A DNA stretch of 46,351 bases from positions 1 through 46,351 of IMG/VR virus record IMGVR_UViG_3300037297_000015. One strand, written 5' to 3'. The stretch is from a virus. Under the pieces are notes generated by a model. That model did not search any database. It saw nothing but the letters and a program-made list of their open reading frames with translations, and was not told where the DNA came from. Positions 3,621 to 32,002 of the stretch are shown one piece after another. The first letter of the stretch is position 1; every line of letters begins with the position of its first letter. Position numbers and translations under genes: made by a program.

Positions 3621-3971
3621 CTACGATGCCAGATCAATCTCGTACATCACGGCGGTTCCGCCTGGGTTCAGTTCGCGCACTTCACTGATCTCATGTTCAG
3701 TCCCGCCGATGACAACCTTGTCTTCCTTGGACGGCGTGACGCCGGCCACCGTGGACACATAGAGCGTCCGCACTGTCTGCCCTACCAGAGTGCCGGAAGC
3801 ATCACGCACCCGCTGATTGAGGTCAACAACCGTGATCGTGGTGTCGGTCTCTGTGATCGTCGGTGCCCATTCATCGCCGCTGGTGGTGATCTGTCGCAGC
3901 GTGGCAGACTGACCGAAGCGCGCGATCAGACGTGTGGCTGTTGCCGCGGCACGGGTATAATCGAAGGTCAT
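3621..3971 (-). CDS. Head closure / head-tail stopper-like protein
   Basis: 116 residues: an amino-terminal helix (TRAAATATRLIARFG) followed by beta-rich sequence (ATLRQIT, TITVVDLN, VRTLYVSTVAG, DKVVIGGTEHEISEV). This order, size and position match head closure proteins of the SPP1 gp16 / HK97 gp7 type that sit under the adaptor ring. Its ATG overlaps the upstream stop (ATGA). The assignment rests on pattern and position rather than a catalytic motif. Confidence 0.6.
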   Translation of the reverse strand: MTFDYTRAAATATRLIARFGQSATLRQITTSGDEWAPTITETDTTITVVDLNQRVRDASGTLVGQTVRTLYVSTVAGVTPSKEDKVVIGGTEHEISEVRELNPGGTAVMYEIDLAS

Positions 3972-4318
3972 TGGTCACCAAACACCAGCCGCGCCGCCAG
4001 TGTGCGCAGGCCATCGGCATCGTCTGTGTCCTCTACATAGACGCCTTCAAGGTCGTCCTCGGTATATTCTCCGGTCCCGGTGATGATCTCGATCAGTTCG
4101 CTGCGCCGCGCCTTCGCGACGATCTCTCCGGTGATCTCCTGATCCTGCTCAGCATCCGCCACAACAATCGATCCAGACCGGAGCTGCGCGCCGAAATGCT
4201 CATCGTGCAGTCGCAGATGCTGCAGTTTCTCGTCCGCGATATTCACCGATCCGCCCTCCGGGATGGTGATGCCACCGCTCAGACGGCACTCGCTACCGGT
4301 GCTGATGATCTGTTTCAT
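3968..4318 (-). CDS. Unknown small acidic head-region protein
   Basis: 116 residues from ATG 4318, which overlaps the stop of the upstream gene (ATGA); an upstream in-frame start at 4366 would lie inside that gene. The sequence has a beta-rich amino half (CRLSGGITIPEGGSVNI) and a very acidic carboxyl half (TGTGEYTEDDLEGVYVED). It resembles in layout the 128-residue protein at 8105-8491. No family is recognised. It closes the glycan cassette and leads back into connector genes, so it may be structural. Confidence 0.6.
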   Translation of the reverse strand: MKQIISTGSECRLSGGITIPEGGSVNIADEKLQHLRLHDEHFGAQLRSGSIVVADAEQDQEITGEIVAKARRSELIEIITGTGEYTEDDLEGVYVEDTDDADGLRTLAARLVFGDQ

Positions 4319-4872
4319 GCTGCGTCCTTTCGCTGTTCTGGTACGCCAAGCAATATGCGTGACCATCCCGACATGCTGCGCATCCGATTGCGATACTGTT
4401 TATCAAGGTCCAGCATGATCTGCTGGTAATTGTGTGCGTATTTCCACGGATCACCGCCATAGAAGTGCGGTGTATGGGTCATCGGGATGCCGCAAAATAC
4501 AGCGGTATCGAATCCCAAGTCAATCAATGCCACCTTGGCAGCGAACAATCCGCTCGATCCGCTGCGCGTCTGGCCCGGAAAGCGATAATCGGTGAACTCC
4601 ATTCCGGGCGGCAGATTGCCCTTGCTCTCATTAATTCGCCATTCCTCGTGGCCGAAATATCGCTTGGCGTCTGGGTATCCATTGTTTGCCCGCGATTGAC
4701 GCCAGCCTTTTGCCTCGAAATAATTCGGATGCAAGCTCACCCACGCATCCAATTCGCCCGGCCACTCGGCCCCTGCTTCGTTGCATGCGATCACGCCGTC
4801 GATCTGACCAGTATAGGCATCAAGATCAGCATGCAGGCAGTCGGCACCGCCAAGAACAAGACAGGTGGTCAT
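4315..4872 (-). CDS. Sialyltransferase-like (GT42/DUF115-like?) protein of the glycan cassette
   Basis: 185 residues. It opens with a nucleotide-binding-like strand and loop (TTCLVLGGADCLHADL), then CNEAGAEWPGELDAWVSLHP, and later GSSGLFAAKVALIDLGFD followed by AVFCGIPM. The last segment recalls the SG-x-x-A-x-ALGY-x-x-I-x-L-x-GID core of GT42 sialyltransferases and the related DUF115 proteins. That is a resemblance seen by eye, not proof. Its position directly after a GT-B glycosyltransferase, overlapping by ATGA, supports a role in the same sugar pathway. Phage proteins of this kind often lie in structural gene clusters; their function is unproven. Confidence 0.5.
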   Translation of the reverse strand: MTTCLVLGGADCLHADLDAYTGQIDGVIACNEAGAEWPGELDAWVSLHPNYFEAKGWRQSRANNGYPDAKRYFGHEEWRINESKGNLPPGMEFTDYRFPGQTRSGSSGLFAAKVALIDLGFDTAVFCGIPMTHTPHFYGGDPWKYAHNYQQIMLDLDKQYRNRMRSMSGWSRILLGVPEQRKDAA

Positions 4873-5657
4873 GTGATCAGTTCCTCAACAATTTCCCGAG
4901 CGTCGTGGTACTTCTCGACCCACTCCCGGCGGCTACCGGCCTCCATCGCGCGCCCGGCAGCGCCGAGCAGATCGTTTAGCGTCGGATCGATCCCGCAGCG
5001 CCCGCTATAGCTGTTGCGCATCTGCCGATGTAGGTCGTCGTCCATCAGCGGTCCTTGGTACGCTTGACGATGGTCATAGATCACGGTCGGGGCTCCGCAG
5101 GCCATCGCCTCCAGTGCCGCCCGGCCCGATGCGAATACCAACGCCGCCCCGGCTAGAATGTCGCGCGCATCTCCCGGCGTGGCATCCATGATGTGCCGGT
5201 ACGGCATCTCAAGCGCCTCAGCGATAATCGCGCATTGTGTCGGACTGCCCCGGTAGCTGTAGCGCACCACGCCTCGCCTCTGCGCCACTGTGGGCCGCCA
5301 GAACGCCGCGTCGATTGGCTGGCGGATGATCGCGCCATTGCCGCCCCAGTGACCACGCACGCCCTCGCTGACGAACAGCACACGGTCAGCCTCTCCGGGC
5401 CGCTCCGGCTCGATGATGCCATGTGAAACGCAGACGGTGCGCTTGCACAACGCTGCGAGGTGTCCGGTCAGGCCCATGTTGGCGAAGATGCCGAGGTCAA
5501 AGCCGCCAGTTGGCATCGGAAAACCCGGCTGCCATTCCTCGACAATGTTATTTCCCATACGCTCAAGCTCGGCGCGCACCGTGGCTATCCACGACTGCAC
5601 CCCGCCGATGGGGCGCGATCCGGTCGGGACGTACTTCGCGGCTAGGAGGATGCGCAT
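4869..5657 (-). CDS. Glycosyltransferase, GT-B fold (GT4-like)
   Basis: 262 residues from ATG 5657, which overlaps the preceding stop (TGATG). The start MRILLAAKYVPTGSRPIGGV is the typical first beta strand and glycine loop of GT4-type enzymes. The carboxyl domain has VFASGRAALEAMACGAPTV, matching the nucleotide-sugar-binding E-x7-E/G region of GT-B enzymes. It is shorter than usual GT4 proteins (350-400 residues), mainly in the linker between domains. It probably transfers a sugar from a nucleotide sugar; acceptor unknown. It sits in a contiguous cassette with a GT-A enzyme and a sulfotransferase. Confidence 0.75.
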   Translation of the reverse strand: MRILLAAKYVPTGSRPIGGVQSWIATVRAELERMGNNIVEEWQPGFPMPTGGFDLGIFANMGLTGHLAALCKRTVCVSHGIIEPERPGEADRVLFVSEGVRGHWGGNGAIIRQPIDAAFWRPTVAQRRGVVRYSYRGSPTQCAIIAEALEMPYRHIMDATPGDARDILAGAALVFASGRAALEAMACGAPTVIYDHRQAYQGPLMDDDLHRQMRNSYSGRCGIDPTLNDLLGAAGRAMEAGSRREWVEKYHDAREIVEELIT

Positions 5658-5848
5658 CAGCGTTTGCTTCTGCGGTCCAGTCTGATCGACCACGCCAGTA
5701 GTTTTCCGGCCGCTGCCACGACCATTTTCTCCACCCCGTGAAGCCCGCGCAGCCCAAAGAACGTGCTGATGTCAGCGCCCAGCTCAAGGATCAGTCGTGA
5801 ACGAAAGGATCGCGCGCCGAGGTTACCGAGTTTTGTCAGGGTGTCCAT
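5657..5848 (-). CDS. Small basic hydrophobic protein in the glycan cassette
   Basis: 63 residues from ATG 5848, overlapping the sulfotransferase stop by one base; the stop in turn overlaps the next start. The sequence is basic at both ends (ARSFRSRL and RLDRRSKR) with hydrophobic helices in between (VVAAAGKLLAWSI). It could be a peripheral membrane protein that holds the cassette enzymes at the membrane, but nothing direct shows this. No family recognised. Confidence 0.5.
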   Translation of the reverse strand: MDTLTKLGNLGARSFRSRLILELGADISTFFGLRGLHGVEKMVVAAAGKLLAWSIRLDRRSKR

Positions 5849-6357
5849 CAATACCAAGCCTCCATCGCCTGCGACTCGGCCGCCTCGATCCGCCGGCGCA
5901 GTTCCCCGGATATCTTCGACCCGTGCCGAACGTTCTCCCGCGCCCCGGTGATGTGACCGAGGCCATCTTCCAGTCGGTACACCGTGACGCTCTCATAGGC
6001 CCCGGCGTAGGCTGCGAACATGCGGCTCACGTACCCCGAAGCATGGTCAATCACGGCCTCCGCAAAGCGGCTCATGTCGTCGCACCACAGCTGATCAAGA
6101 CGTTTGCGCGGATCAAGCGCGCCTTCGTGGCGGCGCATCTTCCAATAGCTCGACATCCAGTCCGCCGGGTGACGCACCACCGTGAAAATCGTACCCTCGG
6201 GTCGATCTCTGCCGATCCAGTGAAAGCGGTGCCGCGCCGTGGCGTCCTCGCCCATTGGCAACACCTCAGACACCTCCCTGCCCAGCAGTGCGCGCCGTAT
6301 TGACGTGCCTCCGGTCTTGGGAATGTGCAGAAATGTGCCGCGGTCAGTGACTAGCAT
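5848..6357 (-). CDS. Sulfotransferase family protein
   Basis: 169 residues from ATG 6357, overlapping the GT-A stop (ATGA). It carries both PAPS-binding signatures of the sulfotransferase superfamily: the 5'-phosphosulfate loop FLHIPKTGGTSIRRALL near residues 8-24 and the 3'-phosphate motif FTVVRHPADWMSSYW near residues 58-72. Such enzymes move sulfate from PAPS to hydroxyl groups, mostly of sugars. Length is short but like other small bacterial and phage members. Placed between two glycosyltransferases, it likely sulfates the sugar they add. Sulfotransferases are uncommon in phage head modules. Confidence 0.8.
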   Translation of the reverse strand: MLVTDRGTFLHIPKTGGTSIRRALLGREVSEVLPMGEDATARHRFHWIGRDRPEGTIFTVVRHPADWMSSYWKMRRHEGALDPRKRLDQLWCDDMSRFAEAVIDHASGYVSRMFAAYAGAYESVTVYRLEDGLGHITGARENVRHGSKISGELRRRIEAAESQAMEAWY

Positions 6358-6968
6358 CAGAGCCGGTGCCCGATGCCAATTCCAGCCCGGCCCGGCCAGC
6401 ATTTCAGCCCGGTCACGCCGCGTGGCTCCGGCGGATATAGCGCCTTGGACCCTTCGAAGTCACGCCACAGGCGCAGATCGATACCTAGCGCGCCTTGTTC
6501 TGCAGAATGCCGCAGCGCATCCAGTGCCGGGCCCTTTATCGCCGTGCTGCACAGGCTGGCGTGTCTGTCGTTGCCCATCGCCTTTTCAGCGCCTGTCACC
6601 ACGTTTCGATAGAGCGCGTGGCTCTCGCCAACCAGATCAGCCATTTCTAACCATTCATCACAACGCGACAGCCACCACGGCGCATACTGGTCGTCGTCCT
6701 CGATCACCACCACACGCGCCGCCTTTGGAAGCGCCGACAGACCGCAGAGCAGATTAGCGGCCAGTGTGTTCTCGCCCGGCTGCCAGTGCGGCTCCCGGCG
6801 AATATGTAGCACGTCCCAGCCGTCAACCTGCGGCGTCGGCATCGGCTCTGGACCATCATCAACGATGATCCATTGGACCGGTCCGCCACAGTCCTGCATC
6901 CGCATCTGAGCAACGCAGGCGGCGAACGCCTCGGGTCGCGCGCCGGTAGGTGTCATGACATGGATCAT
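6357..6968 (-). CDS. Glycosyltransferase, GT-A fold (GT2-like)
   Basis: 203 residues. The first strand HVMTPTGARPEAFAACVAQM and the WIIVDDGPEP loop are the nucleotide-binding half of GT2 enzymes; VVVIEDDDQYAPWWLS gives the metal-binding D-x-D. A later G-x-RGVTGLKCWPGRAGIGIGH segment ends the domain. It should use a nucleotide sugar with Mn or Mg. It is the first gene of the cassette and overlaps the connector gene upstream (ATGA), so it is expressed with head genes and not as a separately promoted unit. Acceptor unknown: virion protein, host surface or DNA are all possible. Confidence 0.8.
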   Translation of the reverse strand: MIHVMTPTGARPEAFAACVAQMRMQDCGGPVQWIIVDDGPEPMPTPQVDGWDVLHIRREPHWQPGENTLAANLLCGLSALPKAARVVVIEDDDQYAPWWLSRCDEWLEMADLVGESHALYRNVVTGAEKAMGNDRHASLCSTAIKGPALDALRHSAEQGALGIDLRLWRDFEGSKALYPPEPRGVTGLKCWPGRAGIGIGHRL

Positions 6969-7528
6969 GATGGAAGCACAGCCCCGATGGATTGCATGTA
7001 GAGCGACGGACCTTTCAATTCGTGAATCAGGATAGGCGCCAGCAAGTCATTGATCACGGTCAGCATCGGTCGATAGTCCCACGCCGTTCCGGTGCTGCCG
7101 TCCTGATAGGTCACGCTCAGTGGCCCGACCTTCTCTTGCTTGACCACCTCGCTCGGATTGATCTGCGCGTGCAGGGTTCCGGCATTGTTCAACTCGTACC
7201 ATGCCGCCTCTGCAACTGCGCCCTCGACGGACGCCGGGATCGTGTCGGCGTCAATGGCAAGGCCATCTACGTCCTTTGCTCCTGTACGCGGCCAGATGCG
7301 GCGCTGCGATGCGCTTGCCTTCTTTCCCGGCCAGCGGCTGGACAGCCCGGCAGTTGGCCCGCCGACACCCTCTACGAAAACGGTACCGACCCTGATCGCA
7401 GGCTCGATTGCCGTGGTGTCATCGAATCCGGAATAGTCCCAGTTGCGCGCGTCGGCATATGCCTTGAACCCGGAAAGGGTAAGCATGGCATCATCGGATG
7501 CGCCGCCGGGGGTGACGGTCAGTGCCAT
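6965..7528 (-). CDS. Head-tail adaptor (DnaT-like/gp6-type connector)
   Basis: 187 residues. The pattern AMLTLSGFKAYADARNWDYSGFDD at the start, AAIRVGTVFVEG and later AVAEAAWYELNN matches the so-called putative DnaT-like ssDNA-binding family of phage head modules, which by position is the helical adaptor ring below the portal. It lies downstream of capsid genes and upstream of the closure protein, although a five-gene glycan cassette now separates the two. Start ATG 7528 follows the upstream stop closely. Confidence 0.7.
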   Translation of the reverse strand: MALTVTPGGASDDAMLTLSGFKAYADARNWDYSGFDDTTAIEPAIRVGTVFVEGVGGPTAGLSSRWPGKKASASQRRIWPRTGAKDVDGLAIDADTIPASVEGAVAEAAWYELNNAGTLHAQINPSEVVKQEKVGPLSVTYQDGSTGTAWDYRPMLTVINDLLAPILIHELKGPSLYMQSIGAVLPS

Positions 7529-7529
7529 A

Positions 7530-8108
7530 TCAGCCGTCCTCCCCTGTTTCCAGCGACATAATCCTAAACGGCGGAGCGACCCATGAGCTGAACTCGGAGG
7601 CAGCCGTCAACGCGGCATCCAATACATCAGGCGGTGTCAGACTATGCATGTGTTCGTTCTGGCGCAGCTTGCTCATGGTGTACATCGCGCCTTTCGCGAT
7701 GTCCGCGCCGCATCCAACCGCGTTGTAGTGATGCCGGTGTTCTGCGACTTGAAAGTCATCCCCGACTTCGAACAGACGTCCGCGCACGCCGACAAGGAAG
7801 GTTCCTCCGCTCTCGACCTCGTTGTCTTTCCTGCGAAATCCGGCGACGGAGAAGCGATGCCGCACACTGTCGATGAACTCGGTGCACATCCACGCGAATA
7901 CGTCCTCGTCCGCCGCAACCTTCGGCGGGGTCCACCCAAACATGAGAGATTGCCCCATGCGGAAACTGCTGGTGAAGCCGATTAGCAACTCGCCGACGCG
8001 AAACACCTTTGGGTCAACACGGTTCTGAAGATAGTGTCCGGCCGCGCCGACACTATCCCCGCCGATCCAGACGTTGCCATTCTCTGTCAGTCCGACAATG
8101 CAGGTCAC
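7530..8108 (-). CDS. Proteasome/HslV-like Ntn hydrolase in the head module
   Basis: 192 residues starting MTCIVGLTENGNVWIGGDSV. Removal of Met would expose Thr2, and the following GGDS and GFTSSFRMGQ segments, plus AVGCGADIAKGAMYTM late in the chain, are those of 20S proteasome beta subunits and HslV (T1 peptidases). These are N-terminal threonine proteases that form rings. Phage members exist in structural modules but their role is unclear; capsid maturation or degradation of a scaffold or host protein are options. It overlaps the upstream stop (ATGA), so no propeptide is possible, unlike cellular beta subunits. Confidence 0.75.
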   Translation of the reverse strand: MTCIVGLTENGNVWIGGDSVGAAGHYLQNRVDPKVFRVGELLIGFTSSFRMGQSLMFGWTPPKVAADEDVFAWMCTEFIDSVRHRFSVAGFRRKDNEVESGGTFLVGVRGRLFEVGDDFQVAEHRHHYNAVGCGADIAKGAMYTMSKLRQNEHMHSLTPPDVLDAALTAASEFSSWVAPPFRIMSLETGEDG

Positions 8109-8522: not shown

Positions 8523-8554
8523 AAAAAGGGCCGGCCGGTTTCTGCTCCGGCCCC
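8523..8554 (-). terminator. Rho-independent terminator after the major capsid gene
   Basis: On the minus strand GGGCCGG (8547-8553) pairs with CCGGCCC (8528-8534) around a 12-base loop, followed at once by TTTTT. It lies 12 bases after the capsid stop. It probably ends part of the transcripts and so raises capsid over downstream genes. Confidence 0.8.
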
Positions 8555-29785: not shown

Positions 29786-30154
29786 ATGCCCCACCCCGTA
29801 GACATCCACGTCGGAAAACGCCTTAAATCGCTGCGCCTGCTGCGCGGCCTGACCCAATCAGATGTCGCCAAGGCGCTCGGATTGTCGTTCCAGCAGGTGC
29901 AGAAATACGAACTCGGCCGCAACCGGATCAGCGCCAGCAAGCTCTACATGATCGCAGGCAAGCTCGGCGTGCAGGTCGCCTACTTATTCGAAGGCCTGGA
30001 CGACACCGGCGACGGTGGCCCGGTGATCGAGGCGGAAACCGCACAGATGGCCGGGAAGATCGCCCGCATCGCCGACCCCGCCCACCGCAGCCGCATTATG
30101 GGCTTCGTCGACGCGATCCTCGACCTGCAGCAAGGCGCGGAGGCCGCGGCATGA
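29786..30154 (+). CDS. XRE family transcriptional regulator
   Basis: 122 residues. Helix-turn-helix VGKRLKSLRLLRGLTQSDVA, KALGLSFQQVQKYELGRNRI and SASKLYMIAGKLGVQVAYLF is a classic XRE domain, followed by a helical dimer tail. Common in Alphaproteobacteria. It overlaps the methyltransferase start (ATGA) and may control that gene, as C proteins do beside restriction-modification genes; no restriction enzyme is seen. Confidence 0.85.
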   Translation: MPHPVDIHVGKRLKSLRLLRGLTQSDVAKALGLSFQQVQKYELGRNRISASKLYMIAGKLGVQVAYLFEGLDDTGDGGPVIEAETAQMAGKIARIADPAHRSRIMGFVDAILDLQQGAEAAA

Positions 30155-31413
30155 AGTATGGATCGGTCTGTTCCGGAATTGAGGCGGCAACGCAAGCCTG
30201 GCATCCGCTAGGCTGGACGCCTTCGTTTTTCTCAGAGATCGATCCGTTCCCGCGCGCTGTTCTCGCGCATCATTACCCTGACGTGCCTCTGCATGGCGAC
30301 TTCACAACAATCGAAAGTGGCGACTATGACCCAATTGACCTTCTTGTCGGAGGAACCCCATGCCAATCATTCTCAATCGCAGGATTGCGCGGAGGATTGG
30401 GCGATGACCGTGGCAACTTGGCACTCGAATATCTTAGGCTGGCTGACCGACTGCGGACCAAGTGGCTGGTTTGGGAGAACGTCCCCGGCGTCCTGTCATC
30501 AAGCGGAGGACGGGACTTTGGTTCCATTCTCGGGGGCATGGTCGAACTCGGGTATGGGGTCGCCTACCGAGTTCTTGACGCTCAGTACGTCAGAACACTG
30601 CCATTTCCTTGGGCCATTCCGCAGCGCCGGCGTCGTGTGTTCGTTGTCGGATATCTTGGAGACTGGCGACGTGCCGCAGCGGTACTTTTTGACGGCGAAA
30701 GCATGTCGGGGAATCCTCCGCCGCGCCGAGAAGCGGGGAAAGCAGTTGCCCCCACTATTAGCGCGCGCCCTACAGGCGGTGGCGGGCTAGGCACTGACTT
30801 CGATCTGGACTGGGGATTGGTCGCAAACTCCGGTGATGTAAGCTATTGTCTTGCAGCAAGCGCACAGCAGAGCCTCGACGCCGAGACCGAGACCTTAATC
30901 GCGAGCGCGACTGGCGACGTAAGTCACGCCCTGCGCGCAGAAGGCTTTGACGCCAGCGAAGATGGAACTGGGCGCGGAACGCTGACGATTGCCATTCAAG
31001 AGCGCGCCATCAGCGAAAACCATAATGCTGGACCGGATGGTGCTGGCGTAAGGGATGACGGCGCAAGCTATACGCTTGAAGCTAGGTCTGTCTGTCAGGC
31101 TGTTGCGTTCGATACCACGCAGGTGACCAGCAAGGGAAATTACAGCAACCCGAAGCCCGGCGACCCGTGCCATCCATTGGCAGCAGGAGCGCACCCGCCT
31201 GCCATAGCAACCACATGGGCTGTGCGCCGCCTGACCCCGACAGAATGCGAGCGCCTCCAGGGATTTCCTGACGGCTTCACCGACGTTCCGTGGCGCGGCA
31301 AAGATCACGCGCCAGACGGACGGCGATACAAGGCTTTGGGCAATTCATTCGCTGTGAATGTGGTCCAGTGGATTGGGCGGCGGATAGAAATGGTTGAGGC
31401 GTTCGATGTTTAA
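30151..31413 (+). CDS. DNA cytosine-5 methyltransferase
   Basis: 420 residues. Motif I GSVCSGIEAA, motif IV GGTPCQSFS (catalytic Cys71), motif VI WENVPG, motif VIII IPQRRRRVFVVG and motif X YKALGNSFAVNVV are present. A long variable region between VIII and IX (residues about 180-350) is the target-recognition part. Between DAQY and PQRRRR there are about ten residues (VRTLPFPWAI) in place of the usual F-G-V. It methylates cytosine, probably to avoid host restriction. No paired endonuclease seen. Confidence 0.9.
   Translation: MKYGSVCSGIEAATQAWHPLGWTPSFFSEIDPFPRAVLAHHYPDVPLHGDFTTIESGDYDPIDLLVGGTPCQSFSIAGLRGGLGDDRGNLALEYLRLADRLRTKWLVWENVPGVLSSSGGRDFGSILGGMVELGYGVAYRVLDAQYVRTLPFPWAIPQRRRRVFVVGYLGDWRRAAAVLFDGESMSGNPPPRREAGKAVAPTISARPTGGGGLGTDFDLDWGLVANSGDVSYCLAASAQQSLDAETETLIASATGDVSHALRAEGFDASEDGTGRGTLTIAIQERAISENHNAGPDGAGVRDDGASYTLEARSVCQAVAFDTTQVTSKGNYSNPKPGDPCHPLAAGAHPPAIATTWAVRRLTPTECERLQGFPDGFTDVPWRGKDHAPDGRRYKALGNSFAVNVVQWIGRRIEMVEAFDV
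30326..30790 (+). CDS. Overlapping ORF inside the methyltransferase gene
   Basis: 154 codons in the frame shifted against the methyltransferase, starting MTQLTFLSEEPHANHSQSQD and ending AEKRGKQLPPLLARALQAVA. Composition is protein-like (SLSDILETGDVPQRYFLTAK, CRGILRRAEKRGKQLPP). No strong ribosome binding site. It may be a true overlapping gene or a by-product of a conserved methyltransferase sequence; a codon-substitution test would decide. Confidence 0.35.
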   Translation: MTQLTFLSEEPHANHSQSQDCAEDWAMTVATWHSNILGWLTDCGPSGWFGRTSPASCHQAEDGTLVPFSGAWSNSGMGSPTEFLTLSTSEHCHFLGPFRSAGVVCSLSDILETGDVPQRYFLTAKACRGILRRAEKRGKQLPPLLARALQAVAG

Positions 31414-32002
31414 GTGCAAATCCTGCGGCGAAACAAAGCCGGATTCAGAGTATCGCATCCACAAAAAGGGGTATAGGATTGGCAAGTGCCGCGCTTGCGA
31501 GCGATCATATCAAAGGGATTGGTATGCATCGCGAGGCGATTATGCTCGCAAGATGAAGCGGGACTACATGGCTCGATTGCGCGCATCCAATCCAGATGCC
31601 ACCCGCGAAAAGCAACGTAAATGGCACGCAGCGAACCGTGAGAAGAATACCGCCAAAATGCGCGAATATTACGCCCGCCGATTTTTTTGGGCTAAGGCGT
31701 GCAAGCTGCGCAAGATGGGAGCTGCCAATTATACTGAATTGGCGCGTCTTTGGAAAAAGCAGCGTGGCTTGTGTGCATTAACCGGAAGACGGCTTTCGCG
31801 CGAAAACGCCGAACTCGATCACAAAATACCAAAGTCGCGAGGTGGAGGCGACGAGATTGACAACCTACAGTGGGTGACTGTTGAGGCCAATCGAGCAAAG
31901 CGTGACCTCACTGATGGAGAATTTGCTGAGCTTTGCGGAGATGTCATGCGATGGATCGGAGACCGCATTCAGCTTGTTGAAGAACTGACCAAGGAGGGCT
32001 GA
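31406..32002 (+). CDS. HNH endonuclease with zinc ribbon
   Basis: 198 residues from ATG 31406, overlapping the methyltransferase end by 8 bases. FKCKSCGETK and GKCRACERSYQRDW form a zinc ribbon, then a basic helix (REKQRKWHAANREKNTAKMR), then CALTGRRLSRENAELDHKIP and KSRGGGDEIDNLQWVTVEAN with HNH residues. Nuclease for recombination, packaging or homing; last secure gene of the rightward operon. Confidence 0.82.
   Translation: MFKCKSCGETKPDSEYRIHKKGYRIGKCRACERSYQRDWYASRGDYARKMKRDYMARLRASNPDATREKQRKWHAANREKNTAKMREYYARRFFWAKACKLRKMGAANYTELARLWKKQRGLCALTGRRLSRENAELDHKIPKSRGGGDEIDNLQWVTVEANRAKRDLTDGEFAELCGDVMRWIGDRIQLVEELTKEG

Follow-up and report, generated by a model that had tools for sequence, protein, structure and literature searches.

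Sets of phage-coded glycosyltransferases are familiar from the Gtr serotype-conversion cassettes of temperate phages. Glycosylation of the phage particle itself has also been reported: sugars on the capsids of mycobacteriophages Che8 and Rita are linked to phage-coded glycosyltransferases (Freeman et al. 2023, as summarized in a passage of PMC11256854), and at least two glycoproteins are reported for phage XacN1 (PMC5852040). Phage sulfotransferases are likewise on record, with a function stated to be unclear (PMC10580990). In the IMG/VR virus record IMGVR_UViG_3300037297_000015, a stretch of 46,351 bases (the window), glycosyltransferase and sulfotransferase genes occur together: five overlapping minus-strand genes, GTA, SULF, C, GTB and ST, separate the gene of a head-tail adaptor (Ad1) from that of a head closure protein (Hc1) (Table 1). 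The cassette probably serves to build, in the cytosol and late in infection, a tailored sugar (sulfated in this case) on a virion protein, using donors made by the host.

As in Che8 and Rita, the glycosyltransferases are coded by the phage (here GTA, probably GTB, and ST by its fold), whereas sugars on virion proteins are reported for those phages and proposed for the one in the window. In the related phage Maravista, the glycosyltransferase genes are located close to the genome's 3' end and not between connector genes, and the passage citing this work mentions neither a sulfotransferase nor a GT42-fold enzyme for Che8, Rita or Maravista (PMC11256854). A preliminary description of the window had regarded sugar plus sulfation in a structural module as new; glycosylated virions and phage sulfotransferases have each been reported (PMC11256854, PMC5852040, PMC10580990), and it is their combination that is apparently new. 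In the literature searched, which included few subscription journals, no report was found of glycosylation combined with a sulfotransferase, of the ST family, of its fusion to a head protein or of sulfate on a phage particle; the apparently new elements are the ST family, its head-module fusion and the swappable sulfating cassette.

The cassette lies within an ordered series of minus-strand structural genes, which starts with terminase (phrog_979), portal (phrog_146), protease-like and other head genes and a major-capsid-type protein (phrog_771), and continues through two small genes, Ad1, the five cassette genes, a further small gene (F), Hc1 and a head morphogenesis protein to the tail genes. 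The reading frames, overlaps and flanking genes are those given in the preliminary description, although the end it set for the block (4318) is three bases short of the ST stop codon (4315) and F, between ST and Hc1, was missed. Because stop and start codons overlap at all junctions from Ad1 through Hc1, from which the start codons of the five genes were also set, there is no intergenic room for a promoter, and the block is therefore most likely translated within the late operon. In a consensus scan, a single minus-strand promoter-like site falls inside the block, within ST (the whole region has 4 sites, versus 1.5 expected). Another IMG/VR record has a 13,512-base contig whose sequence is the same at every base across the cassette region.

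Table 1. Positions of the cassette genes, their borders and related features (window positions unless a locus is named; loci other than the window carry L numbers)
Feature	Position	Strand	Evidence
Ad1, head-tail adaptor, upstream border	6965..7528	-	phrog_477 E=2.4e-34, PF20557
GTA, GT2-type (GT-A) glycosyltransferase, 203 aa	6357..6968	-	motifs; PF00535 in homologues
SULF, PAPS-dependent sulfotransferase, 169 aa	5848..6357	-	PAPS motifs, phrog_3347, predicted fold
C, small basic protein, 63 aa	5657..5848	-	stop/start overlaps on both sides, pI 11.6
GTB, probable GT-B (GT4-like) glycosyltransferase, 262 aa	4869..5657	-	GRAALEAMACGAPTVI segment, weak PF00534, homologues
ST, GT42-fold (sialyltransferase-like) protein, 185 aa	4315..4872	-	AlphaFold2 model and Foldseek; constant cassette element
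F, small acidic head-module protein accompanying ST	3968..4318	-	ATGA overlap with ST; homologues
Hc1, head closure protein, downstream border	3621..3971	-	phrog_161 E=3.2e-18
In-frame ST fusion ORFs	L097:2693-4195, L100:5301-6947, L103:4304-5266 and relatives		
Repeat/lectin-like proteins in cassette-free relatives	L032:4820-6610, L036:5362-7131, L037:4010-5611, L049:4391-5788		
Phage P1 pmgO-pmgP-ppp-pmgQ	L139:3144-5702		

The predicted fold of ST is that of bacterial GT42 sialyltransferases. With an AlphaFold2 model of ST (predicted local distance difference test score, pLDDT, 93.6) as Foldseek query against the PDB, the top 16 structures are all bacterial GT42 sialyltransferases (E 4e-6 to 2e-4; query-based template modelling (TM) scores 0.52-0.67). 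ST shares this fold with Cst-I and Cst-II, but it is only 12-15% identical to them, has a shorter chain and finds no sialyltransferase Pfam match. As none of 41 ST-family members matches the sialyltransferase Pfam models at E<=0.05, ST is termed GT42-fold and not a GT42 member; as modelled, it represents a sialyltransferase-fold family that has no Pfam entry. In the alignment of the 41 sequences, N31, H48, R61, G105, S107, G108, G128 and H136 are invariant; N31 and H136 are candidates for the CMP-contacting Asn and the catalytic His of GT42 enzymes. A scan with the ST profile finds 44 viral loci and six prophages, in Roseovarius, Mameliella (two), Phenylobacterium, Shinella and Aquamicrobium. 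The prophage of Roseovarius sp. MMSF_3281 (L129) has GTA, a methyltransferase, ST and F.

SULF carries the sequences FLHIPKTGGTS and VVRHPADWMSSYW, corresponding to the motifs HxPKxGG (5'-phosphosulfate loop) and RxPxxxxxS (3'-phosphate motif) for binding of 3'-phosphoadenosine-5'-phosphosulfate (PAPS), in which H11, P13, K14, G16, G17, R62, P64 and S70 are invariant across 28 aligned phage relatives. The best PDB folds for its model (pLDDT 82) are all sulfotransferases, at E 0.002-0.1, probability up to 0.98 and TM scores of only 0.3-0.5. SULF itself has no sulfotransferase match in Pfam and reaches phrog_3347 at E=0.0013; motifs and predicted fold together identify it as a PAPS-type sulfotransferase. 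Related small sulfotransferases occur in at least 116 IMG/VR stretches (L140-L219 among those listed), and SULF falls in a broad group, common in phages, of galactose-3-O-sulfotransferase-like proteins (phrog_3347). It differs from that group in its location, the head-tail connector region, where it forms one overlapping block with glycosyltransferases.

GTA has VDDG and EDDD motifs that are invariant across four orthologues, and although its own PF00535 score (E=0.0055) is below the cut-off, homologues 60-63% identical to it in L007, L021 and L129 pass, by which GTA is classed as a GT2-type glycosyltransferase. GTB, with homologues in L021, L090 and L130, is a probable GT-B (GT4-like) enzyme; its PF00534 scores are below the cut-off both in the window (E=0.025) and in L021 (E=0.0048). 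Since homologues of GTA, GTB and ST occupy the same slot in other phages and the phage relatives of SULF number more than 100, these four are real genes and not chance reading frames. For C, support as a gene consists of the overlaps and the guanine-cytosine content by codon position only, and the homologue search was empty apart from the identical contig L003. A role of C as a membrane anchor is unsupported, the highest 19-residue hydropathy being 1.04.

More general searches add little: the window proteins gave only weak cassette matches in Pfam, PHROGs and NCBIfam, PDB searches with single sequences and with the ST profile gave chance matches only, and DNA and protein searches of an isolated-phage collection gave no match for the DNA region, SULF, GTA or GTB. 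The identities first suggested for the enzymes hold for the GT2 enzyme (PF00535 in the GTA homologues), the PAPS sulfotransferase (motifs and fold) and the sialyltransferase-like protein (GT42 fold), as profile searches and structure prediction, the checks proposed with them, bear out; the GT-B enzyme is plausible and weakly scored.

Relatives of the window were gathered by using the capsid gene as an anchor (80 loci). Most of those with a complete interval have Ad1, Hc1 and the head morphogenesis gene directly consecutive, free of a cassette. In four lineages a cassette stands between Ad1 and Hc1: beside the window, these are L007 (GTA, a class I methyltransferase and ST), L021 (GTA, GTB and ST) and L019, where ST is joined by a DLDxVV-motif enzyme, a sulfotransferase matching PF03567 and a methyltransferase matching PF13578. 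The shorter contigs L028 and L060 have this DLDxVV enzyme directly after Ad1. The same slot therefore hosts two different sulfotransferases, SULF in the window and the PF03567 enzyme in L019. Related phages exchange cassette enzymes at one place and keep ST constant. The neighbourhood survey suggested earlier yields similar cassettes in L007, L021 and L019 in which the enzyme set varies. Other cassette-free relatives have large repeat/lectin-like proteins between the capsid and head morphogenesis genes, with LRR_5-type leucine-rich repeats in L049, and these are likely to be virion-surface proteins.

The neighbourhood of ST was surveyed in 51 loci, including Paracoccus phage Pkon1; these loci are not independent, some being near-identical, and their gene labels derive from simple open reading frame (ORF) calling and clustering. 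Head genes lie within 3.5 kb of ST in 43 of the 51, and a DLDxVV enzyme (18 loci), a methyltransferase (12) or a hexapeptide-repeat acyltransferase-like gene (9) is found near it. The partners are interchangeable, comprising GT2 enzymes, the family containing phage P1 PmgQ, methyltransferases (FkbM, TylF and others), acyltransferase-like proteins and sulfotransferases. A slot that is merely an insertion hot spot, gathering passenger genes with no common task, would also give an enzyme set that is variable and often absent in relatives, and HNH/AP2 homing endonucleases do adjoin ST in several of them. This explanation is nonetheless improbable: ST is retained throughout the cassettes, small head-module proteins recur as its 3' neighbour or as the protein fused to it, and nearly all its partners are glycan-related.

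F, which directly follows ST in the window, has homologues only in ST-bearing loci, again directly downstream of ST, and is a candidate acceptor or anchor. In L121 and L111, ST plausibly ends in an F-like tail when judged by eye; the similarity is below significance and is excluded from the evidence. In Pkon1, L097, L099, L100, L103-L110 and L133, the ST domain continues in frame into a domain of the type EPHPVS...ELNAQGYK (phrog_16180), and this EPHPV protein is free-standing in L126. L097 and L100 have the triple order DLDxVV (PmgQ-like) enzyme, ST, EPHPV. At the border between the two domains, six fusion ORFs have an ATG preceded by a GGAG at a distance of about 9 bases. The linker is always 36 codons long, with most changes at third codon positions; these features suggest that the ORFs may yield both a fused and a free product. 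Among the sequence arguments for action of ST on or beside the assembling head, the fusion is the strongest. In L110, the capsid gene is separated from the ST fusion by an HNH/AP2 homing-endonuclease-like gene (7463-7987), and the same cluster is present in L103-L109, L133 and L134.

The fusion of ST to head-module proteins and the late position of the cassette also argue against hypermodification of phage DNA bases by the cassette enzymes, to which the preliminary description had already preferred the virion or the host envelope. Phage glucosyltransferases acting on DNA are known (PMC5852040), whereas a scan of window proteins, which covered part of the ORFs, brought out no enzyme that hydroxymethylates bases, and the DNA methyltransferase seen in another part of the window is of the ordinary C5-cytosine type. 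DNA modification by this cassette is thus very improbable. The gene of the C5-cytosine enzyme overlaps an HNH nuclease gene (window 30151-32002, plus strand), the pair resembling a small restriction-modification or homing unit.

For assembly of a glycan on the virion, the following scheme, with its donors, order of steps and acceptor, is proposed. GTA and GTB would attach host nucleotide sugars, ST would transfer a sugar from a host-made donor activated with cytidine monophosphate (CMP), either CMP-3-deoxy-D-manno-oct-2-ulosonic acid (CMP-Kdo) or a CMP-nonulosonate, and SULF would add sulfate from host PAPS. The sugar would be received by a head or neck protein encoded on the same transcript, for which F and its counterparts are possible candidates. 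Adenosine-5'-phosphosulfate (APS) kinase serves PAPS supply, and the PF02348 family includes CMP-Kdo synthetase. Host supply of both donors is proposed because genes for APS kinase and for CMP-sugar synthetase-family proteins (PF02348) are present in all five ST-prophage host genomes examined. A working model for action on a structural protein may be the Maf enzyme, of a family with a CstII-like domain, which places N-acetylneuraminic acid or Kdo on Ser/Thr of flagellin (PMC11339370). Maf likewise glycosylates a self-assembling structural protein in the cytosol, but it has three domains where ST has one, and no sequence match of Maf to ST was found. The proposal is thus based on the junction overlaps, the proximity of ST to head genes, the ST fusion, the glycan-tailoring partners, the lectin-like interval proteins, the host donor enzymes, the analogy to Maf and the virion glycans reported for other phages. 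Co-expression with structural genes and decoration of the virion, as first suggested, are supported by gene position, coupling, the fusion and the surface-like interval proteins, with the target still a candidate. Tentatively, the same elements may form a widespread phage system: a GT42-fold enzyme, in some phages fused with an internal start to a head-module protein, would build an exchangeable virion glycan open to methylation, acylation or sulfation, giving a variable, here sulfated, coat.

Several points weigh against virion glycosylation. The acceptor is a candidate only and the virion glycan is itself proposed from the genes; the EPHPV partner is called a head-module protein from gene position alone; and in L090, L091, L130 and L131 ST adjoins lysin or tail-fibre-like genes, not head genes. 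In addition, phage P1 can do without pmgO, pmgP and pmgQ in lytic growth (PMC10695390). This may be compatible with decoration, which may itself be dispensable in the laboratory.

The main rival is that the cassette alters host lipopolysaccharide, capsule or exopolysaccharide at lysis or late in infection, for example to keep progeny from sticking to debris or to shut out competing phages. Enzymes of the GT42, GT4 and GT2 types typically belong to surface polysaccharide synthesis, cassette variation resembles that of surface-antigen genes, and some ST genes adjoin lysin or fibre-like genes. However, no flippase or membrane-anchored transferase has a family match among the cassette proteins, whose peak 19-residue hydropathy is 1.60 (in ST), the cassette genes are translationally coupled to connector genes and ST is fused to head-module proteins, which leaves alteration of the envelope a rather unlikely explanation. 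The Gtr cassettes, although also sets of phage-coded glycosyltransferases, differ in the same respect, as the window cassette is without a flippase or membrane-anchored transferase and sits in a late structural operon.

Compared with virion glycosylation as proposed here, the P1 pmgO-pmgP-ppp-pmgQ genes offer a partial parallel. P1 PmgQ (about 30%) and P7 HdmD, annotated as a glycosyltransferase, are homologues of the DLDxVV enzyme found beside ST; P1 pmgO is annotated as an alpha-2,3-sialyltransferase, and in Citrobacter phage phiNP an annotated sialyltransferase adjoins the PmgQ homologue. The P1 set differs in having a phosphatase where ST cassettes have tailoring enzymes, and PmgO and PmgP are not demonstrable relatives of ST: comparison of profiles was not significant (probability 8-9%), so that orthology is not claimed. 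Both proteins give weak scores against MptE-like PF01973. The 'putative morphogenetic' pmg genes of P1 may be a glycan cassette too.

If virion glycosylation is correct, phages would alter the chemistry of their particles, including the addition of sulfate, by swapping enzyme cassettes around one conserved sialyltransferase-like enzyme. Phage sulfotransferases would then have a role that can be tested, there would be a lead on P1 pmgO, pmgP and pmgQ, and enzymes would become available for protein glycosylation in the bacterial cytosol. As Pkon1 is an isolated phage with an ST-head-protein fusion, a first test is practical.

Two further features lie upstream of the cassette. An HslV-like peptidase gene is present inside the head module directly before Ad1 (window 7530-8108, minus strand; phrog_1040, E=1.6e-21). 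A terminator-like hairpin (GGCCGG...CCGGCC followed by a T-rich run; window 8533-8552, minus strand) stands just past the major capsid gene, upstream of Ad1 and the cassette, and may lower expression of these genes beyond it.

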